Shown here: piece after piece, positions 11,160-44,030 of the stretch
Layout: each line of letters opens with the position of its first letter
Numbering within the stretch: position 1 is the first letter of the stretch
NCBI RefSeq assembly: GCF_022430525.1
Contig: NZ_CP092519.1
Span: 1,180,454-1,244,453, forward strand
Length of the DNA stretch: 64,000 bases
Reading direction: 5' to 3'
Source of the DNA: Cetobacterium somerae
GTDB lineage: Bacteria; Fusobacteriota; Fusobacteriia; Fusobacteriales; Fusobacteriaceae
Translations under genes and position numbers: made by a program
Notes under the pieces: model-generated
Told to the model about the DNA's origin: nothing
Seen by the model: the letters and a program-made list of their open reading frames with translations, nothing else
Databases searched by the model: none

Positions 11160-11936
11160 ATGAATAAAAAATATTTTTTCAATCTATTTCCAAATGAAGA
11201 TGAATTTCTCATTGCATCTATTTGGGAAGACTTATCATTGTGTTTAGACATCGATTACCCTGTTTATGGTTCTATTTTTTTACCACCACAAATTTGGACA
11301 AAACTTTACGATGTTTGTACTTCAATCAATTTAGAGATTTACACTTTAGGATTAACTCCTGATAGTGAAAAGAAATTAGTAATTTTCACCCCAAAATTTT
11401 TCGATTCTTCATCTTTAGAAGAAGTTGTTACTTATTTTAAAATTGACGCTTCTAATAAATTTAAAACATTACAACACAAAGACTTTTTGGGGACAATTAT
11501 GGGACTTGGATTTAAACGAGAAATTTTAGGCGATATTATCGTTAAAGATAATATTGGTTATTGCATAACTACAAAGGATATTTTTAACATTATAAAAAAT
11601 AATCTTAGCCAAATAAATACCATTCCTATAAATATTAGTACCATCAGTACTTCTCAAATTCCTCAATTAGAATTTAAAGAAATTACAGATACTATTTCAT
11701 CTTTTAGACTTGATTCTATTATAGCTTCTATTGCAAATTCATCTAGAAACATTAGTACAAATTTAATCGAGAGCGGAGATGTTTTAGTTAACTATAATAT
11801 TGAAAAAAGTAAAAATAAAATAATTAATATCGGTTCGGTAATTACAATTAGAAAAAAAGGTAAATTTATTTTAGAAAAAAATTTAGGAGAAAACAAGAAA
11901 GGTAAATTTAAAATTCTTATAAAACAATACATTTAG
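11160..11936 (+). CDS. YlmH-like S4-domain RNA-binding protein
   Basis: A 258-residue protein resembling YlmH. The C-terminal third (about 180-240) begins FRLDSIIASIANSSRN, an S4 RNA-binding domain, and ends in the basic IRKKGKF. In Bacillus, YlmH is encoded near ftsZ/divIVA and is linked to ribosome-associated quality control. Here it is unlinked from division genes and lies 11 nt before a molybdopterin-binding gene. The start has no convincing Shine-Dalgarno sequence (GCGAGT at best), so the start or its strength is uncertain. The N-terminal two thirds match the family only loosely. Confidence 0.72.
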   Translation: MNKKYFFNLFPNEDEFLIASIWEDLSLCLDIDYPVYGSIFLPPQIWTKLYDVCTSINLEIYTLGLTPDSEKKLVIFTPKFFDSSSLEEVVTYFKIDASNKFKTLQHKDFLGTIMGLGFKREILGDIIVKDNIGYCITTKDIFNIIKNNLSQINTIPINISTISTSQIPQLEFKEITDTISSFRLDSIIASIANSSRNISTNLIESGDVLVNYNIEKSKNKIINIGSVITIRKKGKFILEKNLGENKKGKFKILIKQYI

Positions 11937-24143: not shown

Positions 24144-24169
24144 AAAAAAGCCTTTTTAAGGCTTTTTTT
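24144..24169. terminator. Two-way terminator (tpx / DUF368 gene)
   Basis: An 11-bp stem (24144-24154 with 24158-24168), loop TTT, with A-tract on the left and T-tract on the right, so it can work on both strands. Confidence 0.8.
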
Positions 24170-24914
24170 ATTTTATAAACAACGTTTCTACTATTTGTAC
24201 TAAAGAAACGATTATTATACCAACTATAAAGTTTAAAGTATAACTTCTATATTTGTTAAGCAGTATATTTATTCCCTTAGAAACTAAAATTAATCCTATT
24301 CCTGTTCCTACAGCAAAAAAACCTAATGGTAATATATTAAAACTTTTTATATATCCTAATATATTATAATATTCTCCCATTATCATAAGTAATAAAGATC
24401 CTGAAATTCCAGGTATTACCATAGCTCCTGCTGCTATTATCCCACAGAAAAAAAGTTTAATTCCATAAGATATTGTAAAAATAGAAGCTGTTGTTCTCAC
24501 AACTTCTTCTCCTGCAAACAATTTCGTTATATATATAAAAACTCCTGTAAATATAACGCCTGCGAAAAAGGCAAAAAGATTATCTCTTTTAAAAAATTTT
24601 TCACCTTTTAATATTACTGGAATTGACGGAAGTATCAAAAATAGAAAAACAATTGTTGTTCCTCTAGGATATAACGTATACATTTTAGAAATAACTCCTG
24701 CAAATGCAACAATTCCAATTACTGCTCCCAACCCTATTTGTGATAAAAATTTAGCATATTCTATTTTTTTTTCCATTGAAGCTGTCAAAAAATTCCCAAC
24801 TGCTTCTGTTAATTTATCATAAATATTTAACACTACTGCTAGTGTTCCCCCTGAAACACCAGGTAAAACATTTGCAACTCCTATTACTATTCCTTTTAAA
24901 AAATTTTTAAACAT
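24168..24914 (-). CDS. DUF368 membrane protein (polyprenyl-phosphate transporter family)
   Basis: A 248-residue protein with about eight hydrophobic segments. The N-terminal GVANVLPGVSGGTLAV and the internal GAMVIPGISGSLLLM are the repeated DUF368 signatures. The family (PopT) has been identified as a flippase recycling undecaprenyl phosphate to the cytoplasmic face for cell-wall and O-antigen synthesis. A GTG lies two codons upstream, but the ATG at 24914 has AGGAG at the correct distance. It is nine bases or so after the transposase-like gene and likely cotranscribed with it. Confidence 0.87.
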   Translation of the reverse strand: MFKNFLKGIVIGVANVLPGVSGGTLAVVLNIYDKLTEAVGNFLTASMEKKIEYAKFLSQIGLGAVIGIVAFAGVISKMYTLYPRGTTIVFLFLILPSIPVILKGEKFFKRDNLFAFFAGVIFTGVFIYITKLFAGEEVVRTTASIFTISYGIKLFFCGIIAAGAMVIPGISGSLLLMIMGEYYNILGYIKSFNILPLGFFAVGTGIGLILVSKGINILLNKYRSYTLNFIVGIIIVSLVQIVETLFIK

Positions 24915-24929
24915 GCACACTCCTAGTAT

Positions 24930-25985
24930 TTATTTTATTATTTTAGCTTTATCAATAAATATATCCTTCATGTAAACATCAACTCTTTCTATAGAAAACT
25001 CATTATAGAATATATCTACAACAGAGCCCTCTTTATCTTTTAACAATGAACTACTATATATATTATTTTTTACTCTAACTGTACTATTATAAACTTTTCT
25101 TTTATACTTATGTAAAAAATATAAAAGTTTATATTTCTCTTCACTATTTAAACCTTCTATTTTATTATCTTCTATAAATAAATATTTTTTTATAAACAAT
25201 GAAATTTCTTTTATATTCTTGGGTTTTTCTTTGTTAAATTCTTTCAAAATATCTGTATCAATATATCTAACGAATCCCATCATATTTTCGTCAGCTTCTT
25301 CTTGAATTAGACTTATTTTAGTTTTAAAAAATATTGTTCTTAATAAGTTTTTAGAAACTCCTTGAATTCGTTCATCCAAAGATATATTTTTAGGATAAGC
25401 TCCTTCTATTATAATACTTTCTTGAATAAAATTAAATAGTTTTATTAATTCTCTTTTCTCTTCTTCAAAAATAAAATTTATTATTTTATAATTCTCTTTA
25501 TTATAAAAAATAGTCAAATAAAAAATTTTATTTTTATTATTAAAAAAAGGAATTGGAATCGCTTTTTGTATAATAGCATATTCGTACACCCTATCTTTTT
25601 TTACAGATTTTATAGAATTTTGTTTAATATTTTCATCTAAATTGTTTATTATTCTAAAAAAAGTTGGGTAACTTATCATACTATTATAAGAACTGAGGGT
25701 ATTTTTAGCTTTATCATACAGTTTTGTTACTGGTAGTGTGTGGTATTCTTTATACAAAGCTTTTAAGTGTTCCATTACATCTTCATTTACTTTTTTAAAA
25801 GTATTCTTATCTACCCTAGTTTTTTTTACTAATCCTTTTTCTCCTGAATCTTTATATTGACTTACCCATCTTTTTAATGTGGCATAAGAGATTTGAGTTT
25901 CTTTTTCTATCTCTCTTAATTTTTTCTCCTTCTTAAAAAAGGGTTCAAGTATCTTATATTTTCTATTTTTTTCATCTGTTTTCAT
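24930..25985 (-). CDS. Degenerate Mu-type transposase-like protein
   Basis: A 351-residue protein with transposase architecture: tandem helix-turn-helix regions (about 1-110, LREIEKETQISYATLKRW and TFFRIINNLDENIK), a degraded RNase H-like core (about 125-250), and a C-terminal beta-barrel-like segment (IYSSSLL, DIFYNEFSIERVDVYM) resembling the Mu transposase C domain. The first catalytic aspartate and final glutamate expected in the core are not found; only SLDERIQG recalls the middle one. No terminal inverted repeats or partner ATPase were seen. It is divergent from ptsG and upstream of the DUF368 gene, so a DNA-binding regulatory role is possible. Confidence 0.6.
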   Translation of the reverse strand: MKTDEKNRKYKILEPFFKKEKKLREIEKETQISYATLKRWVSQYKDSGEKGLVKKTRVDKNTFKKVNEDVMEHLKALYKEYHTLPVTKLYDKAKNTLSSYNSMISYPTFFRIINNLDENIKQNSIKSVKKDRVYEYAIIQKAIPIPFFNNKNKIFYLTIFYNKENYKIINFIFEEEKRELIKLFNFIQESIIIEGAYPKNISLDERIQGVSKNLLRTIFFKTKISLIQEEADENMMGFVRYIDTDILKEFNKEKPKNIKEISLFIKKYLFIEDNKIEGLNSEEKYKLLYFLHKYKRKVYNSTVRVKNNIYSSSLLKDKEGSVVDIFYNEFSIERVDVYMKDIFIDKAKIIK

Positions 25986-26019: not shown

Positions 26020-26028
26020 ATTATAACA
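26020..26028 (-). promoter_or_regulatory. Extended -10 element of the transposase-like gene
   Basis: TGTTATAAT on the minus strand, about 35 nt before the ATG and its GGGAG. No good -35 seen. Confidence 0.4.
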
Positions 26029-26072
26029 CAAATTATGCGTAAAAAAAAGGCTCATTTATTTTGATAATTTTC

Positions 26073-26101
26073 TTGACTTTTTTTAAAATAAAATGTATTC
26101 T
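26073..26101 (+). promoter_or_regulatory. Promoter of ptsG
   Basis: TTGACT (26073-26078), 17-bp spacer, TATTCT (26096-26101). The leader is about 40 nt with no antiterminator (RAT) or terminator hairpin, so GlcT-type control is not evident. Confidence 0.55.
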
Positions 26102-26148: not shown

Positions 26149-27624
26149 ATGAAAATATTTGCTGAAGTTCAAAAAATCGGTAAAGCTTTGATGACACCGG
26201 TTGCAATTTTACCAGCTGCTGGTATATTCCTTGCTGCTGGAAATAAGTTAGGAATACCTTTAATGGAGCAAGCTGGAGGAATAATTTTTGGTAATTTACC
26301 ACTTTTATTTGCTGTTGGAGCTGCTATTGGTTTAGTAGGTGGAGACGGTATTGCCGCTCTTGCTGCTATTGTTGCACTTTTGATTATGAATACTACTATG
26401 GGAACACTTACAGATGCTGCTAATGGTATTGCTGCTGGAAATCCTGCTTTCGCAGAGGTTTTAGGAATCCCTACTCTTCAAACTGGAGTTTTCGGAGGAC
26501 TTATCGCAGGTATTATTGCTGCTATTTGTTACAAAAAGTTCTATAAAACAGAGTTACCAGCTTTCTTAGGTTTCTTTGCAGGAAAAAGACTTGTTCCTAT
26601 TATGACTGCTGTATTAGCTTTCTTAGTTGGTTTAGCTATGCCTTATATTTGGCAACCAGTTCAAGCAGGACTTGCTCAATTATCTTACTTAGCTAATGAA
26701 ACAAATACTAATATCTCTACATTATTATTTGGAATTACAGAAAGAGCTTTAATTCCATTTGGATTACATCATATTTTCTACGCACCTTTCTGGTATCAAT
26801 TTGGTGAGTATACAAACAACGCTGGTCAAATCGTTAACGGAGACCAAGCTATTTGGTTTGCAATGTTAAAAGATGGAGTTCATTCATTCTCATCAGCTAC
26901 ATATTCTGGAGCTGGAAAATTCTTAACTGGTAAATTCCCATTCATGATGTTTGGACTACCTGCTGCTGCTCTTGCAATGTACCACGAAGCAAGAAATGAA
27001 AATAAAAAAATGGCTGCTGGAATTTTATTCTCTGCTGCTCTTACTTCATTCTTAACAGGAATAACTGAACCTTTAGAGTTCTCATTCTTATTCGTTGCTC
27101 CTGTTTTATACGGAATCCACTGTATCTTCGCTGGACTATCATTTATGTTAATGAACATGTTTGGTGTTAGAATTGGTATGACATTCTCTGGTGGAGTTAT
27201 TGACTATATTATGTTTGGAGTTCTTCCTGGAACTGAGGGATTTGAAACTAACTGGCCAATGGTTATTATTGTCGGTTTAGGATTCTCTGTAATCTATTAC
27301 TTCGGATTCAGATTCTTTATTAGAAAATTCAATTTAGCTACTCCTGGAAGAGAAGTTGGTACTGAAGTTGATGATCAACCTAAAGCTGAAGGTAGTGAAT
27401 TAGCTACTCTTGTTCTTGCTGCTCTAGGAGGAAAAGAAAATGTTATTTCTGTCGACGCTTGTATCACTAGATTAAGACTTGAAGTTAAAGATACTGCTCT
27501 TGTAAACGATGCAGAATTAAAAAGACTTGGAGCTTCTGGAGTTCTAAAAGTTGGACAAAATGGAGTTCAAGCGATATTTGGTGCTAAAGCTCAATTTATA
27601 GCAAATGATATAAAAGCTTTATAA
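26149..27624 (+). CDS. ptsG: Glucose-type PTS permease, IICB
   Basis: A 491-residue PTS transporter: IIC domain (about 1-390) and IIB domain with phosphorylation site C438 (DACITRLRL). The IIC domain matches E. coli PtsG closely at [40 protein letters not shown] and [16 protein letters not shown]. This supports glucose as substrate, although GlcNAc permeases are close relatives. No IIA domain is fused, so a separate Crr-like IIA is required. The ATG follows GGAGG. It is transcribed alone. Confidence 0.87.
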
Positions 27625-40957: not shown

Positions 40958-41752
40958 TTGGATATCGTATATGAAATAAAACAAAAATACAATAGTTTTT
41001 CTCAAAAAGAAAAATATGTCGCTGATTATATACTTAAACATAAAGATAATATTGAAAATATATCAATTACCAACCTTTCAAAAGCAACAGGAGCATCTAC
41101 CTCTACAATAACTAGATTTTCTAAAAAAATTAATTGCGATAGTTTTGTTCAAATGAAAATTAAGTTAAATACAACTTTTAACAACTCTCTTCCTAAAGAA
41201 AGTGATCTTTTCTCAGCTGTTCATAATTATTATACGGAGGTAATCGAAAAAACAAACCAATTAATCAATAAAAAACTTATTTTAAAAGTTGTTGAAGAGA
41301 TAAAAAAAGCTAAAAGAATTTATATATATGGAGTGGGAAGCTCTGGACTTACTGCACATGAATTTATGCAAAGACTTTTAAGAATGGGATTTAACGTTTC
41401 TAGTATCACTGATTCTCATATGATGATTATAAATAGTGCTATTGTTTCAGCTGATGACCTTGTTATTGGAATATCTATTTCTGGAGAAACAAAAGAGATT
41501 ATAGATTCTTTGAGAGTTTCTCAAAAAAATGGTGCCCATACAATTGGAGTTACAAGTTTTCCTAATAGTTCTATTAAAAAATTTTCCAACGATTTAATTT
41601 TGATTTGTGCTTCAGATTTTATTCATAAAAGAGATTTTATTAACACTCAATTCTCAACTATGTATCTTTTTGACCTAATCTCTACAATTCTTTTATCCAA
41701 CAAGGATTTAAGAAAAAAAATGCAATTAACAATTGAAGCAATTTTAAAATAA
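40958..41752 (+). CDS. MurR/RpiR-family sugar-phosphate regulator
   Basis: A 264-residue regulator with an N-terminal helix-turn-helix (about 1-77; SKATGASTSTITRFSKKI) and a C-terminal SIS sugar-phosphate-binding domain (about 105-240; IYGVGSSGLTAHEFMQRL, GISISGETKEII). It probably senses an amino-sugar phosphate and represses the following PTS-nanE genes, which have a palindromic operator over their transcription start. TTG start after AGGAGG. A terminator separates it from the PTS gene. Confidence 0.9.
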   Translation: MDIVYEIKQKYNSFSQKEKYVADYILKHKDNIENISITNLSKATGASTSTITRFSKKINCDSFVQMKIKLNTTFNNSLPKESDLFSAVHNYYTEVIEKTNQLINKKLILKVVEEIKKAKRIYIYGVGSSGLTAHEFMQRLLRMGFNVSSITDSHMMIINSAIVSADDLVIGISISGETKEIIDSLRVSQKNGAHTIGVTSFPNSSIKKFSNDLILICASDFIHKRDFINTQFSTMYLFDLISTILLSNKDLRKKMQLTIEAILK

Positions 41753-41774
41753 ACAGCTTAAAAGCTGTTTTTTT
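41751..41774 (+). terminator. Terminator of rpiR
   Basis: A 7-bp stem (41751-41757 with 41764-41770) with a T run of seven. It makes the PTS gene a separate unit. Confidence 0.65.
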
Positions 41775-41809
41775 GTTGTAATTTTAATATTTATGTGATA
41801 TATTCATAC

Positions 41810-41862
41810 TATAATTAATGAAAATTATTTTCATATATGTATATTTGTATGAAAATAATTTA
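41810..41862 (+). promoter_or_regulatory. -10 and RpiR operator of the PTS-nanE operon
   Basis: TATAAT at 41810-41815 is followed by the perfect palindrome TGAAAATTATTTTCA (41819-41833), over the expected start site. A second, half-matching copy TGAAAATAATTTA lies at 41850-41862. The TGAAA/TTTCA form fits RpiR/NagR-type operators. Confidence 0.5.
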
Positions 41863-41879
41863 TGCAACAGGAGGTTACT

Positions 41880-43373
41880 ATGTTTAAAAATTTACAAAAA
41901 ATTGGTAAATCATTTATGCTTCCAATAGCTATTTTACCAGCTGCTGGATTACTTTTAGGAATTGGAGGAGCTCTTTCAAACGCAAACACTGTTAATGCTT
42001 ATCCTTTCTTAAATATACCAATTCTACAAGGTATTTTACAAGTTATGTCTGCTTCTGGAGAAGTTATTTTTGCTAATCTAGCTCTTATTATGTGTATTGG
42101 ACTTGCTATTGGATTAGCTAAAAAAGATAAAGGAACAGCTGGTTTAGCTGGTGCTGTAGCTTTTTTAGTTATGAATGCTTCTATTAAAGGATTAATTACA
42201 GCATTTAAACCTGAAGTAGGGTCTATCGACACAGGTGTTGTTGGAGCTATTGTTATAGGTTCTTTAGTAGCTTACCTACATAATAAATATAGCAATATTA
42301 AACTGCCTGCTGTTCTTGGTTTCTTTGGTGGATCAAGATTTGTTCCTATTGTTTCTTCTTTTGCAGCAATCGGAATTGGTATAATATTTTTCTTAACATG
42401 GCCAACATTCCAAGGATGGCTAACATCTGCTGGAAAGTCAATTGCCAGTTTAGGAATTTTTGGAACTTTCCTTTATGGTTTTCTTTTAAGACTAAGTGGA
42501 GCTGTTGGATTACATCACATGATTTATCCTTTATTTTGGTATACTGAGCTTGGCGGAACTGCTCAAGTTGCTGGAAAAACTATTGTTGGAGCTCAGAATA
42601 TTTTCTTTGCTCAATTAGCTGATCCTAATCATACTGGTCTATTTACTGAGGGAACTAGATTTTTTGCTGGACGTTTTGCTACTATGATGTTTGGTCTTCC
42701 AGCTGCTTGTTTAGCTATGTACCATTGCACACCTCTAAATAAAAGAAAACTTGTTGGTGGATTATTTTTAGGAGCTGCAATTACATCTTTTATCACAGGA
42801 ATTACAGAACCTATCGAATTTATGTTTTTATTTGTTGCTCCTTGGTTATATGGAGTTCATGCATTCTTTGATGGTTTATCTTTTCTTGTAGCTGATTTAT
42901 TAAATATATCTATTGGAAATACATTCTCTGGAGGTTTAATAGACTTTACTCTTTTTGGTGTTCTACAAGGAAACGAAGCGACTAATTGGATGTATGTTTT
43001 AATAATTGGAGCGATCTGGTTTGCTCTATATTATTTTTCTTTTGTATTCTTAATTAAACGTTTCAACATTGCAACTCCCGGTAGAGAGGGAGATGATGAA
43101 GAGATTAAAATAGTAACTAAAGATTCTCTTTTTGAAACATCTAAAGAAGTTTTAGCTGCTCTTGGTGGAAAAGAAAATATTGATGATGTTGATGCTTGTA
43201 TAACAAGACTTAGAGTATCTGTTAAAGATGTATCTAAAGTTGATAAAGCTAAATTAAAAAGTCTTGGTGCGACTGGAGTTTTAGAAGTACAAGGTGGAAT
43301 TCAAGCTATTTTTGGAGCTATGGCTGATCCTATTAAACAAAAAATAAATGAGATTATAGAAAATAACAACTAG
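41880..43373 (+). CDS. Glucose/GlcNAc-family PTS permease, IICB (probable amino-sugar)
   Basis: A 497-residue IICB permease, paralogous to ptsG in this window. IIC (about 1-400) has KIGKSFMLPIAILPAAGLLLG, VGLHHMIYPLFWYTELGG and TSFITGITEPIEFMF; IIB has phosphorylation site C440 (DACITRLRV). Differences at the GLHH region and the adjacent nanE and RpiR genes suggest N-acetylmannosamine or a related amino sugar, not glucose. No IIA domain. The frame extends six codons upstream, but the ATG at 41880 follows CAGGAGG. Confidence 0.82.
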   Translation: MFKNLQKIGKSFMLPIAILPAAGLLLGIGGALSNANTVNAYPFLNIPILQGILQVMSASGEVIFANLALIMCIGLAIGLAKKDKGTAGLAGAVAFLVMNASIKGLITAFKPEVGSIDTGVVGAIVIGSLVAYLHNKYSNIKLPAVLGFFGGSRFVPIVSSFAAIGIGIIFFLTWPTFQGWLTSAGKSIASLGIFGTFLYGFLLRLSGAVGLHHMIYPLFWYTELGGTAQVAGKTIVGAQNIFFAQLADPNHTGLFTEGTRFFAGRFATMMFGLPAACLAMYHCTPLNKRKLVGGLFLGAAITSFITGITEPIEFMFLFVAPWLYGVHAFFDGLSFLVADLLNISIGNTFSGGLIDFTLFGVLQGNEATNWMYVLIIGAIWFALYYFSFVFLIKRFNIATPGREGDDEEIKIVTKDSLFETSKEVLAALGGKENIDDVDACITRLRVSVKDVSKVDKAKLKSLGATGVLEVQGGIQAIFGAMADPIKQKINEIIENNN

Positions 43374-43382
43374 GAGGATTTT

Positions 43383-44030
43383 ATGAAAAGAGGTCTTATT
43401 GTATCATGTCAAGCACTAGAAACCGAACCTTTACACAGTTCATTTATAATGGGTAGAATGGCTGTTGCTGCTCAAATGGGAGGAGCTGTTGGAATTAGAG
43501 CAAATGGAGTAGAGGATATTCTTGAAATAAAAAAAGTAGTTGATTTACCAATCATTGGTATCATAAAAAAAGATTATGAGAATATGGTTTCTTACATTAC
43601 TCCCACTGAAAAAGAGTTAGAAGCACTTATTGCTACTAATATTGATGTCATTGCTCTTGACGCTACTATAAATGCTGATTTAAATCTTTTAAAGTCTTTA
43701 AAAGTTAAATATCCTAACCAAAAATTTATGGCTGATATCTCTACTACTGAAGAGGGAGTTCGTGCAGAAGAATTAGGTTTTGATTATATTGGAACAACTT
43801 TAGTTGGATATACTGAGCAGTCTAAAGGCTTAAATAACTTTGATGTTCTTAAAGAATTAATATCAAAATGTAAAACTCCTATAATTGCTGAGGGAAATTT
43901 TGATACTCCAGAAAAGTCAAAATTAGCAATGGAATTAGGATCTTATGCCGTTGTCGTTGGTGGAGCTATCACTAGACCTCAACTTATAACTAAAAAATTT
44001 GCTGATGAAGTAAATAAAGTTAAATTTTAA
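43383..44030 (+). CDS. nanE: N-acetylmannosamine-6-phosphate 2-epimerase
   Basis: A 215-residue TIM-barrel NanE, converting ManNAc-6-P to GlcNAc-6-[40 protein letters not shown] and the C-terminal [19 protein letters not shown] are the family's conserved segments. It is nine bases after the PTS gene, so sugar imported as ManNAc-6-P could go straight to GlcNAc-6-P. No sialate lyase or kinase lies nearby, which points to free ManNAc and not sialic acid as the nutrient. Confidence 0.95.

Follow-up and report, generated by a model that had tools for sequence, protein, structure and literature searches.

A catalytically degenerate transposase relative as a candidate regulator of the glucose-type PTS in Fusobacteriaceae

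A gene in a 64,000-nucleotide stretch of the Cetobacterium somerae genome (the whole of which is called the window below) very probably codes for a Tn552-type transposase that has lost catalysis, has been domesticated and now serves as a transcription factor dedicated to the glucose-type PTS gene divergent from it, although there are no binding or expression data. At the level of sequence, comparisons showed that it shares its origin with TnpA transposases, has lost the catalytic triad, persists under selection and is linked to PTS genes, and that a conserved DNA site lies at a near-fixed distance from the PTS −35 element. The features of the locus are collected in Table 1. The gene was present once in its own 2.97-Mb genome, with ptsG lying divergently 163 nt away and a DUF368 (polyprenyl-phosphate translocase-like) gene following on the same strand 9 nt to its 3' side.

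Table 1. Features of the transposase-derived gene and its surroundings, in window positions.
Feature	Position	Strand	Basis
Transposase-derived gene, 351 aa	24930..25985	−	ATG start, Pfam, hhalign, joint alignment
First helix-turn-helix (residues 9–55), best-conserved part	25821..25961	−	HTH_28; invariant T36 L37 K38 R39 W40
Second helical DNA-binding region (residues 36–111), putative	25653..25880	−	HTH_32 below cut-off; helices 68–80, 86–99, 106–126 in AlphaFold model
Degenerate RNase H-like domain, triad lost (residues about 133–250)	25236..25589	−	hhalign, joint alignment, AlphaFold model
Mu-type C-terminal beta-barrel (residues 290–343)	24957..25118	−	PF09299 over cut-off
ptsG, glucose PTS EIICB	26149..27624	+	TIGR02002 above cut-off
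DUF368 / undecaprenyl phosphate translocase-like gene, lineage-specific downstream neighbour	24168..24920	−	Pfam, locus comparison
Candidate operator: A-tract, GGCTCA (26049–26054), W7, TGA (26062–26064), A/T-tract	26043..26069	+	Intergenic comparison, pattern scans
ptsG promoter TTGACT-17-TATTCT, predicted	26073..26101	+	Promoter scan, intergenic comparison; −35 at 26073, −10 at 26096–26101
Regulator's own putative extended −10 (TGTTATAAT)	26020..26028	−	Sequence reading; not in promoter-scan list

The domain layout of the protein was investigated by profile and structure comparison. HTH_28 (residues 9–55) and Mu-transpos_C (290–343) were the Pfam domains above the curated cut-off, and no match to the RNase H model rve was obtained up to E 1. 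The AlphaFold model was of medium quality (pLDDT 65.9, pTM 0.36; 6 sequences) and contained helices, a beta-beta-beta-alpha-beta-alpha-beta-alpha order and a terminal barrel. Together with Pfam and hhalign, it placed in the protein the HTH-HTH-RNase H-barrel order of Tn552/TnsB-type transposases. Using hhalign, the family profile matched three Tn552-type TnpA proteins with a probability of 100 and an E value of 8.3e-41 over 391 columns. These reference proteins are plasmid-borne in Vagococcus, Staphylococcus and Listeria; we take them to be Tn552-type, and their records read "Mu transposase C-terminal domain-containing protein". A PDB profile search returned TnsB as the sole match (E 8.7e-15). 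The query for this search was alignment A1, 40 rows made up of the window protein and 39 of 51 genes; fragments, near-copies, genes with truncated starts and L114 account for the 12 not used. A Foldseek search of the AlphaFold model, in line with the structural comparison against MuA and TnsB that had been suggested for this gene, gave TnsB, MuA and IstA as best matches (E down to 2e-12). Global superposition was poor (TM-scores below 0.35, rmsd close to 20), which indicates that the domains match and their arrangement does not. Judged by these comparisons, the product is a full-length relative of the Tn552-type (TnsB/MuA-like) transposases, and the Mu-type architecture assigned by the original prediction was upheld.

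The likeness to Tn552-type TnpA is colinear over the 391 columns, which span the helix-turn-helix, the second helix-turn-helix, the RNase H-like domain and the beta-barrel. The window protein differs from TnpA in being about 130 aa shorter and in having lost the triad. Its gene also stands as a single copy beside a fixed PTS neighbor, with no adjacent ATPase or resolvase and no convincing ends, whereas the TnpA genes of two elements (L168, L169) lie beside genes for a full-length AAA ATPase and a resolvase. TnsB and MuA share the architecture but are active transposases with partner proteins.

Loss of catalysis was assessed in a joint alignment of 41 family members (A1 and L114) with four transposases. 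All four transposases carried the three catalytic residues, whereas the first Asp was found in none of the 41 family members, the Glu in six (in a gapped region) and the second Asp in 21. In the window protein, the TnpA residues D166, D240 and E276 correspond to I, D and M. By this alignment the loss of the DDE triad is old and general in the family, and the absence of D1 and E that had been read from the single sequence holds well beyond it.

Features of a mobile element were sought around the gene. Within the window, the best inverted-repeat pair scored 13, slightly over the 95% point of 300 mononucleotide shuffles (12.1) and under their maximum (15). Its left arm was a terminator-like stretch (24144–24168) beyond the DUF368 gene and its right arm was the operator, and the pair was consequently not taken as transposon ends. 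None of 644 ORFs in 56 loci matched a Tn552-type ATPase or resolvase at E 1e-3, the flanks in the window being DUF368 and ptsG. The original prediction had likewise reported neither ends nor a partner ATPase, and had named an intact triad, terminal repeats or many copies as grounds for dropping it; none was convincingly found. The candidate operator was not traced to transposon ends, since GGCTCA is missing from the longest inverted repeat found in the Vagococcus element (L181 4395–4448 / 11239–11292) and the Listeria element showed nothing clear. A phage set yielded no match to the gene, and viral contigs contained no relatives of the protein.

Homologues were identified in 44 of 61 Fusobacteriaceae genomes, and in 36 of the 47 more complete ones. 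Genomes of the family without the gene are partly incomplete (completeness down to 62%), and species in these family-wide counts are not independent. Over the phylum the count was 45 of 98, the additional genome being that of Haliovirga abyssi. The named close relatives of the window protein are from Cetobacterium, and a scan of genome contigs with the window protein alone as query returned five loci, all of this genus. A plasmid scan matched 37 records; among the 20 matches listed, those outside Fusobacteriota had a transposase annotation or none. Two named homologues carry only the annotation "helix-turn-helix domain-containing protein". In four loci of two draft genomes (L082–L085, from G010 and G004), contigs break within the gene around codons 160–169, almost the same position each time, which looks as if a repeated element or a strain mixture were present there.

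Selection was estimated by a counting method, a substitution-rate test having been proposed earlier for this gene. The full-length gene gave dN/dS values of 0.087–0.226 against six congeners. For half genes in two closer genomes, values were 0.032–0.034 for the N-terminal half and 0.079–0.090 for the C-terminal half. The dN/dS values are rough, as dS of the full-length pairs was about 0.8–1.5 and thus near saturation. On these estimates the transposase-derived gene is under purifying selection. The stable host use that had been proposed for it was supported by this result, by its conservation, by the constant PTS neighbor and by the DNA footprint described below.

The neighborhood of the gene was compared in 52 genes, taken from 50 stretches around homologues plus L114 and L119; the window and genome G007 were not among them. 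Two upstream sides (L082 and L084, C-terminal halves at contig ends) could not be counted. In all 50 genes with a visible upstream side, the first divergent gene of at least 85 aa was a PTS gene: EIICB in 40, EIIA then EIICB in six, EI then EIIA in two and HPr then EI in two. The family identity of these neighbors was checked on examples. Haliovirga has a plasmid-borne operon HPr-EI-EIIA-EIICB whose EIICB carries the annotation N-acetylglucosamine-specific, and the EIICBs of L045 and L048 scored just below the cut-off of the glucose model. The partner is therefore a glucose-type PTS and not always a strict ptsG. The remaining neighbors vary between genera.

Presence of the gene also followed that of ptsG. 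A ptsG match at E 1e-100 occurred in 44 of 44 gene-bearing genomes of the family, vs. four of the 17 gene-less ones, leaving 13 without. Three of those four (G036, G037, G048) have a ptsG 76–79% identical, and G056 has only a 46% relative. Regulator and EIICB diverged in parallel (r 0.69 over 43 pairs; at most 0.19 in 1000 permutations). The gene-PTS pairs also seem to move as units: one is on a C. somerae plasmid, and a further gene-EIICB pair (L119 4474–7236, from G005:C4) is broken on both sides at once and keeps an operator-like site. The regulatory link to ptsG that had been foreseen thus gained support from the synteny and from the conserved site, with DNA binding undemonstrated. Elsewhere in the window, a second EIICB gene (41862–43373, about 47% identical to ptsG, within 40958–44030, plus strand) has no transposase-derived partner; it is preceded by an RpiR-type-like regulator gene and followed by an epimerase-like gene (names by eye). 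On the far side of ptsG is a solitary Eco57I/TaqI-type DNA methyltransferase gene (PF07669, PF12950; 27653–29194, minus strand), next to a gene resembling scpA by eye. It occupies the same place in eight stretches of the window's genus (g1) at 70–95% identity and is a core-genome methylase.

The intergenic regions were inspected by eye and contained a block of an A-tract, RGCTCA, W7, TGA and an A-tract, followed by TTGAC(A/T). TCA-N7-TGA forms a dyad of one turn, of which one arm is strong. A set of 49 intergenics was compiled from the window and one gene each of L036–L085 and L114; L042, L082 and L084 were dropped, the N-terminal motif being missing or cut, and L119 was not included. GCTCA occurred 21–24 nt before TTGAC, the PTS −35 element, in 45 of the 49 (23 nt in 29, 22 in 13, 24 in two and 21 in one). 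The distance from the site to the conserved start of the regulator was variable, from 70 to 196 nt. The −35 was TTGACA/T in all 45, and the best −10 lay at 16–18 nt with four or five of six matches. A strict form with 16–18 nt between the two elements was present in 43 of the 49 intergenics, as compared to a mean of 0.004 and a maximum of 1 in 500 shuffles. Over the 51 loci (1.22 Mb, both strands), it matched 44 times, always within 450 nt of the gene; these matches were 42 counted intergenics and, by elimination, the inverted copy in L050 and the site of L042. Four intergenics lacked the site in register. L045 had a variant (GGACCA, TTTAC), L054 had GCTCA 32 nt away, L052 had no recognizable site, and L050 had GGTTCA in register plus the inverted copy. 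This copy (L050 7480–7970, G043:C72) is directed towards the regulator gene, has a TTGAC at the usual spacing and hints at autoregulation.

Three patterns were scanned over whole genomes. The main one, AARGCTCAWW-N7-A-N5..9-TTGAC, was found at 44 places in 39 of the 61 family genomes (reversed control, four places), 41 of them in regulator-PTS intergenics and three elsewhere (G045:C101, which is L175; G003:C24; G040:C1:1477695). All 39 genomes with the pattern carry the gene; it was absent from the 17 gene-less genomes and from five of the 44 gene-bearing ones. A second pattern, scanned over the phylum, gave 35 places in 32 genomes (control, one). Four of these were off-locus (L175–L178), and two of 53 gene-less genomes (G059, G080) contained it. 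L177 and L178 are inside coding sequence of gene-less genomes, and L176 is at the end of one ORF, shortly 5' of a gene resembling transketolase by eye. A third pattern, allowing up to three mismatches, likewise gave 35 places in 32 of the 61 genomes (control, zero), with four elsewhere (L175, G025, G038, G040) and one of 17 gene-less genomes, G038, among them. The site was absent within 400 nt from all three ptsG promoters inspected in gene-less genomes (two genera, one genome 85% complete), as well as from G002's second ptsG, which is unlinked to the gene. L115 and L116 carry copies of GCTCA about 310 nt upstream, within an upstream coding region. As a footprint, without binding data, the PTS promoter thus has a conserved site whose presence and absence follow those of the gene.

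Sites beyond the PTS promoter were also considered. In the window's own genome, the 13-mer AAAAGGCTCATTT had one exact match and 11 with one mismatch (reversed control, two), and GCTCAW-N15..18-TTGAC occurred at five places including the candidate operator (control, two). A wider regulon in this genome was not accepted; L179 and L180, the two inspected of the 11 one-mismatch places, have no −35 in register. In L175 (positions 326–1510; G045:C101), an operator-like site and, by eye, a good promoter precede a periplasmic sugar-binding-protein gene, which adjoins a ROK-family regulator gene. This site is a possible second target.

We infer that the two N-terminal helix-turn-helix units, which would have read the transposon ends ancestrally, now bind A6-RGCTCA-W7-TGA-A6 between the divergent promoters. 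The site lies over the UP-element/−35 zone, and binding there may repress both the PTS gene and the regulator's own. Repression with autorepression was considered somewhat more likely than activation, on the grounds that the PTS promoter is close to consensus and that the site lies over the zone 5' of its −35. PTS status or a sugar is the probable signal; its reception by the dead RNase H and barrel part is a guess. No ROK or PRD domain was matched by Pfam in the protein up to E 1, and an EIIA-like domain is absent from it (Pfam), which leaves the dead RNase H and barrel as the likely receiver. What they receive could be EIICB itself. PtsG acts in this way on Mlc.

It remains possible, if doubtful, that the same protein at the same site activates ptsG by touching RNA polymerase from near −50. 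The near-fixed spacing of site and −35 (21–24 nt in 45 of 45), against 70–196 nt to the regulator start, speaks for it, and the usual 22–23 nt would suit an activator equally. Yet the PTS promoters are near-consensus unaided, and the window site in addition extends over the −35 zone of the putative regulator promoter, where a 17-nt spacer would put the −35 on the operator A-tract (by reading of the window sequence). We regard it as improbable that the site is an UP element or belongs to another factor, with the transposase-derived protein having some other role. Binding data are lacking, and A-tracts upstream of a −35 are the typical look of UP elements, but the G/C core RGCTCA does not resemble one. 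All 17 gene-less genomes of the family moreover lack the main pattern, just as the gene-less ptsG promoters examined lack the site, and the site recurs before ptsI or ptsHI where a paralogue of the regulator sits there (L051, L053, L114).

The original prediction had offered the DUF368 gene as an alternative target, which its position on the same strand after a short gap would favor. That gene, however, follows the regulator in only 10 of 51 loci (8–16 nt away in nine, overlapping in one), all in g1 and one sister genus (g2), and the remaining genera have the PTS partner but no DUF368 there. As the ancestral target it is contradicted, and as the main target it was rejected and is now very improbable; a secondary effect on its expression could remain. 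Hardly credible at all is a decaying or still mobile transposon remnant. The recognizable transposase architecture, the gene-PTS pairs on plasmids and the one degraded pair (L119) could be cited for it, but purifying selection, the vanished triad, the single copy, the want of convincing ends, the missing ATPase and resolvase nearby and the PTS gene adjoining in 50 of 50 cases all oppose it. An active or relic transposon was rejected on copy number, triad, dN/dS, ends and the missing ATPase/resolvase. The preferred reading is the dedicated regulator of the divergent PTS gene.

Local control of ptsG is exerted elsewhere by Mlc, a ROK protein that also controls ptsHI, and by GlcT, a PRD antiterminator. 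Their ROK or PRD domains have no counterpart in the 351-aa protein. A bacterial parallel in origin is TldR, which arose from the mobile-element nuclease TnpB with loss of catalysis. TldR proteins are described, in the text available, as bacterial RNA-guided transcription factors with a regulatory role (PMC13418256). They share with the window protein a mobile-element enzyme ancestry and lost catalysis, but are RNA-guided and of another superfamily, whereas the window protein is a DDE transposase relative that would read DNA by its helix-turn-helix units. Transcription factors derived from transposases are known in eukaryotes, as far as the sources could be consulted, and include FHY3/FAR1 of plants (PMC13306707). 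FHY3/FAR1 differ in being eukaryotic and MULE-derived and in having no part in PTS control. A review of mobile-element recruitment in prokaryotes treats transposon proteins as ancestors of Cas1 and Cas9; the recruited transcription factors that it names, in the portion available, are phage Ner/SfsB and antitoxins, and none made from a DDE transposase is described there (PMC8987985). Among the matches listed for domesticated bacterial transposase regulators and for Fusobacterium PTS regulators, no published account of a transposase-derived family of PTS regulators was present; the subscription literature is mostly outside these sources.

More broadly, the family may represent a bacterial class of sugar-uptake regulators made from DDE transposases, with the end-binding helix-turn-helix units turned into operator readers and the dead RNase H domain into a PTS or sugar sensor, playing for ptsG/ptsHI in Fusobacteriales the part that Mlc has in enterobacteria; this wider proposal is tentative, and we put it at a little short of an even chance. 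As operator, target and likely ancestor are all in view, the role is directly testable. If true, this would be a family-wide bacterial case of a transcription factor derived from a DDE transposase, and it points to a possible regulator of the Fusobacteriaceae glucose PTS.
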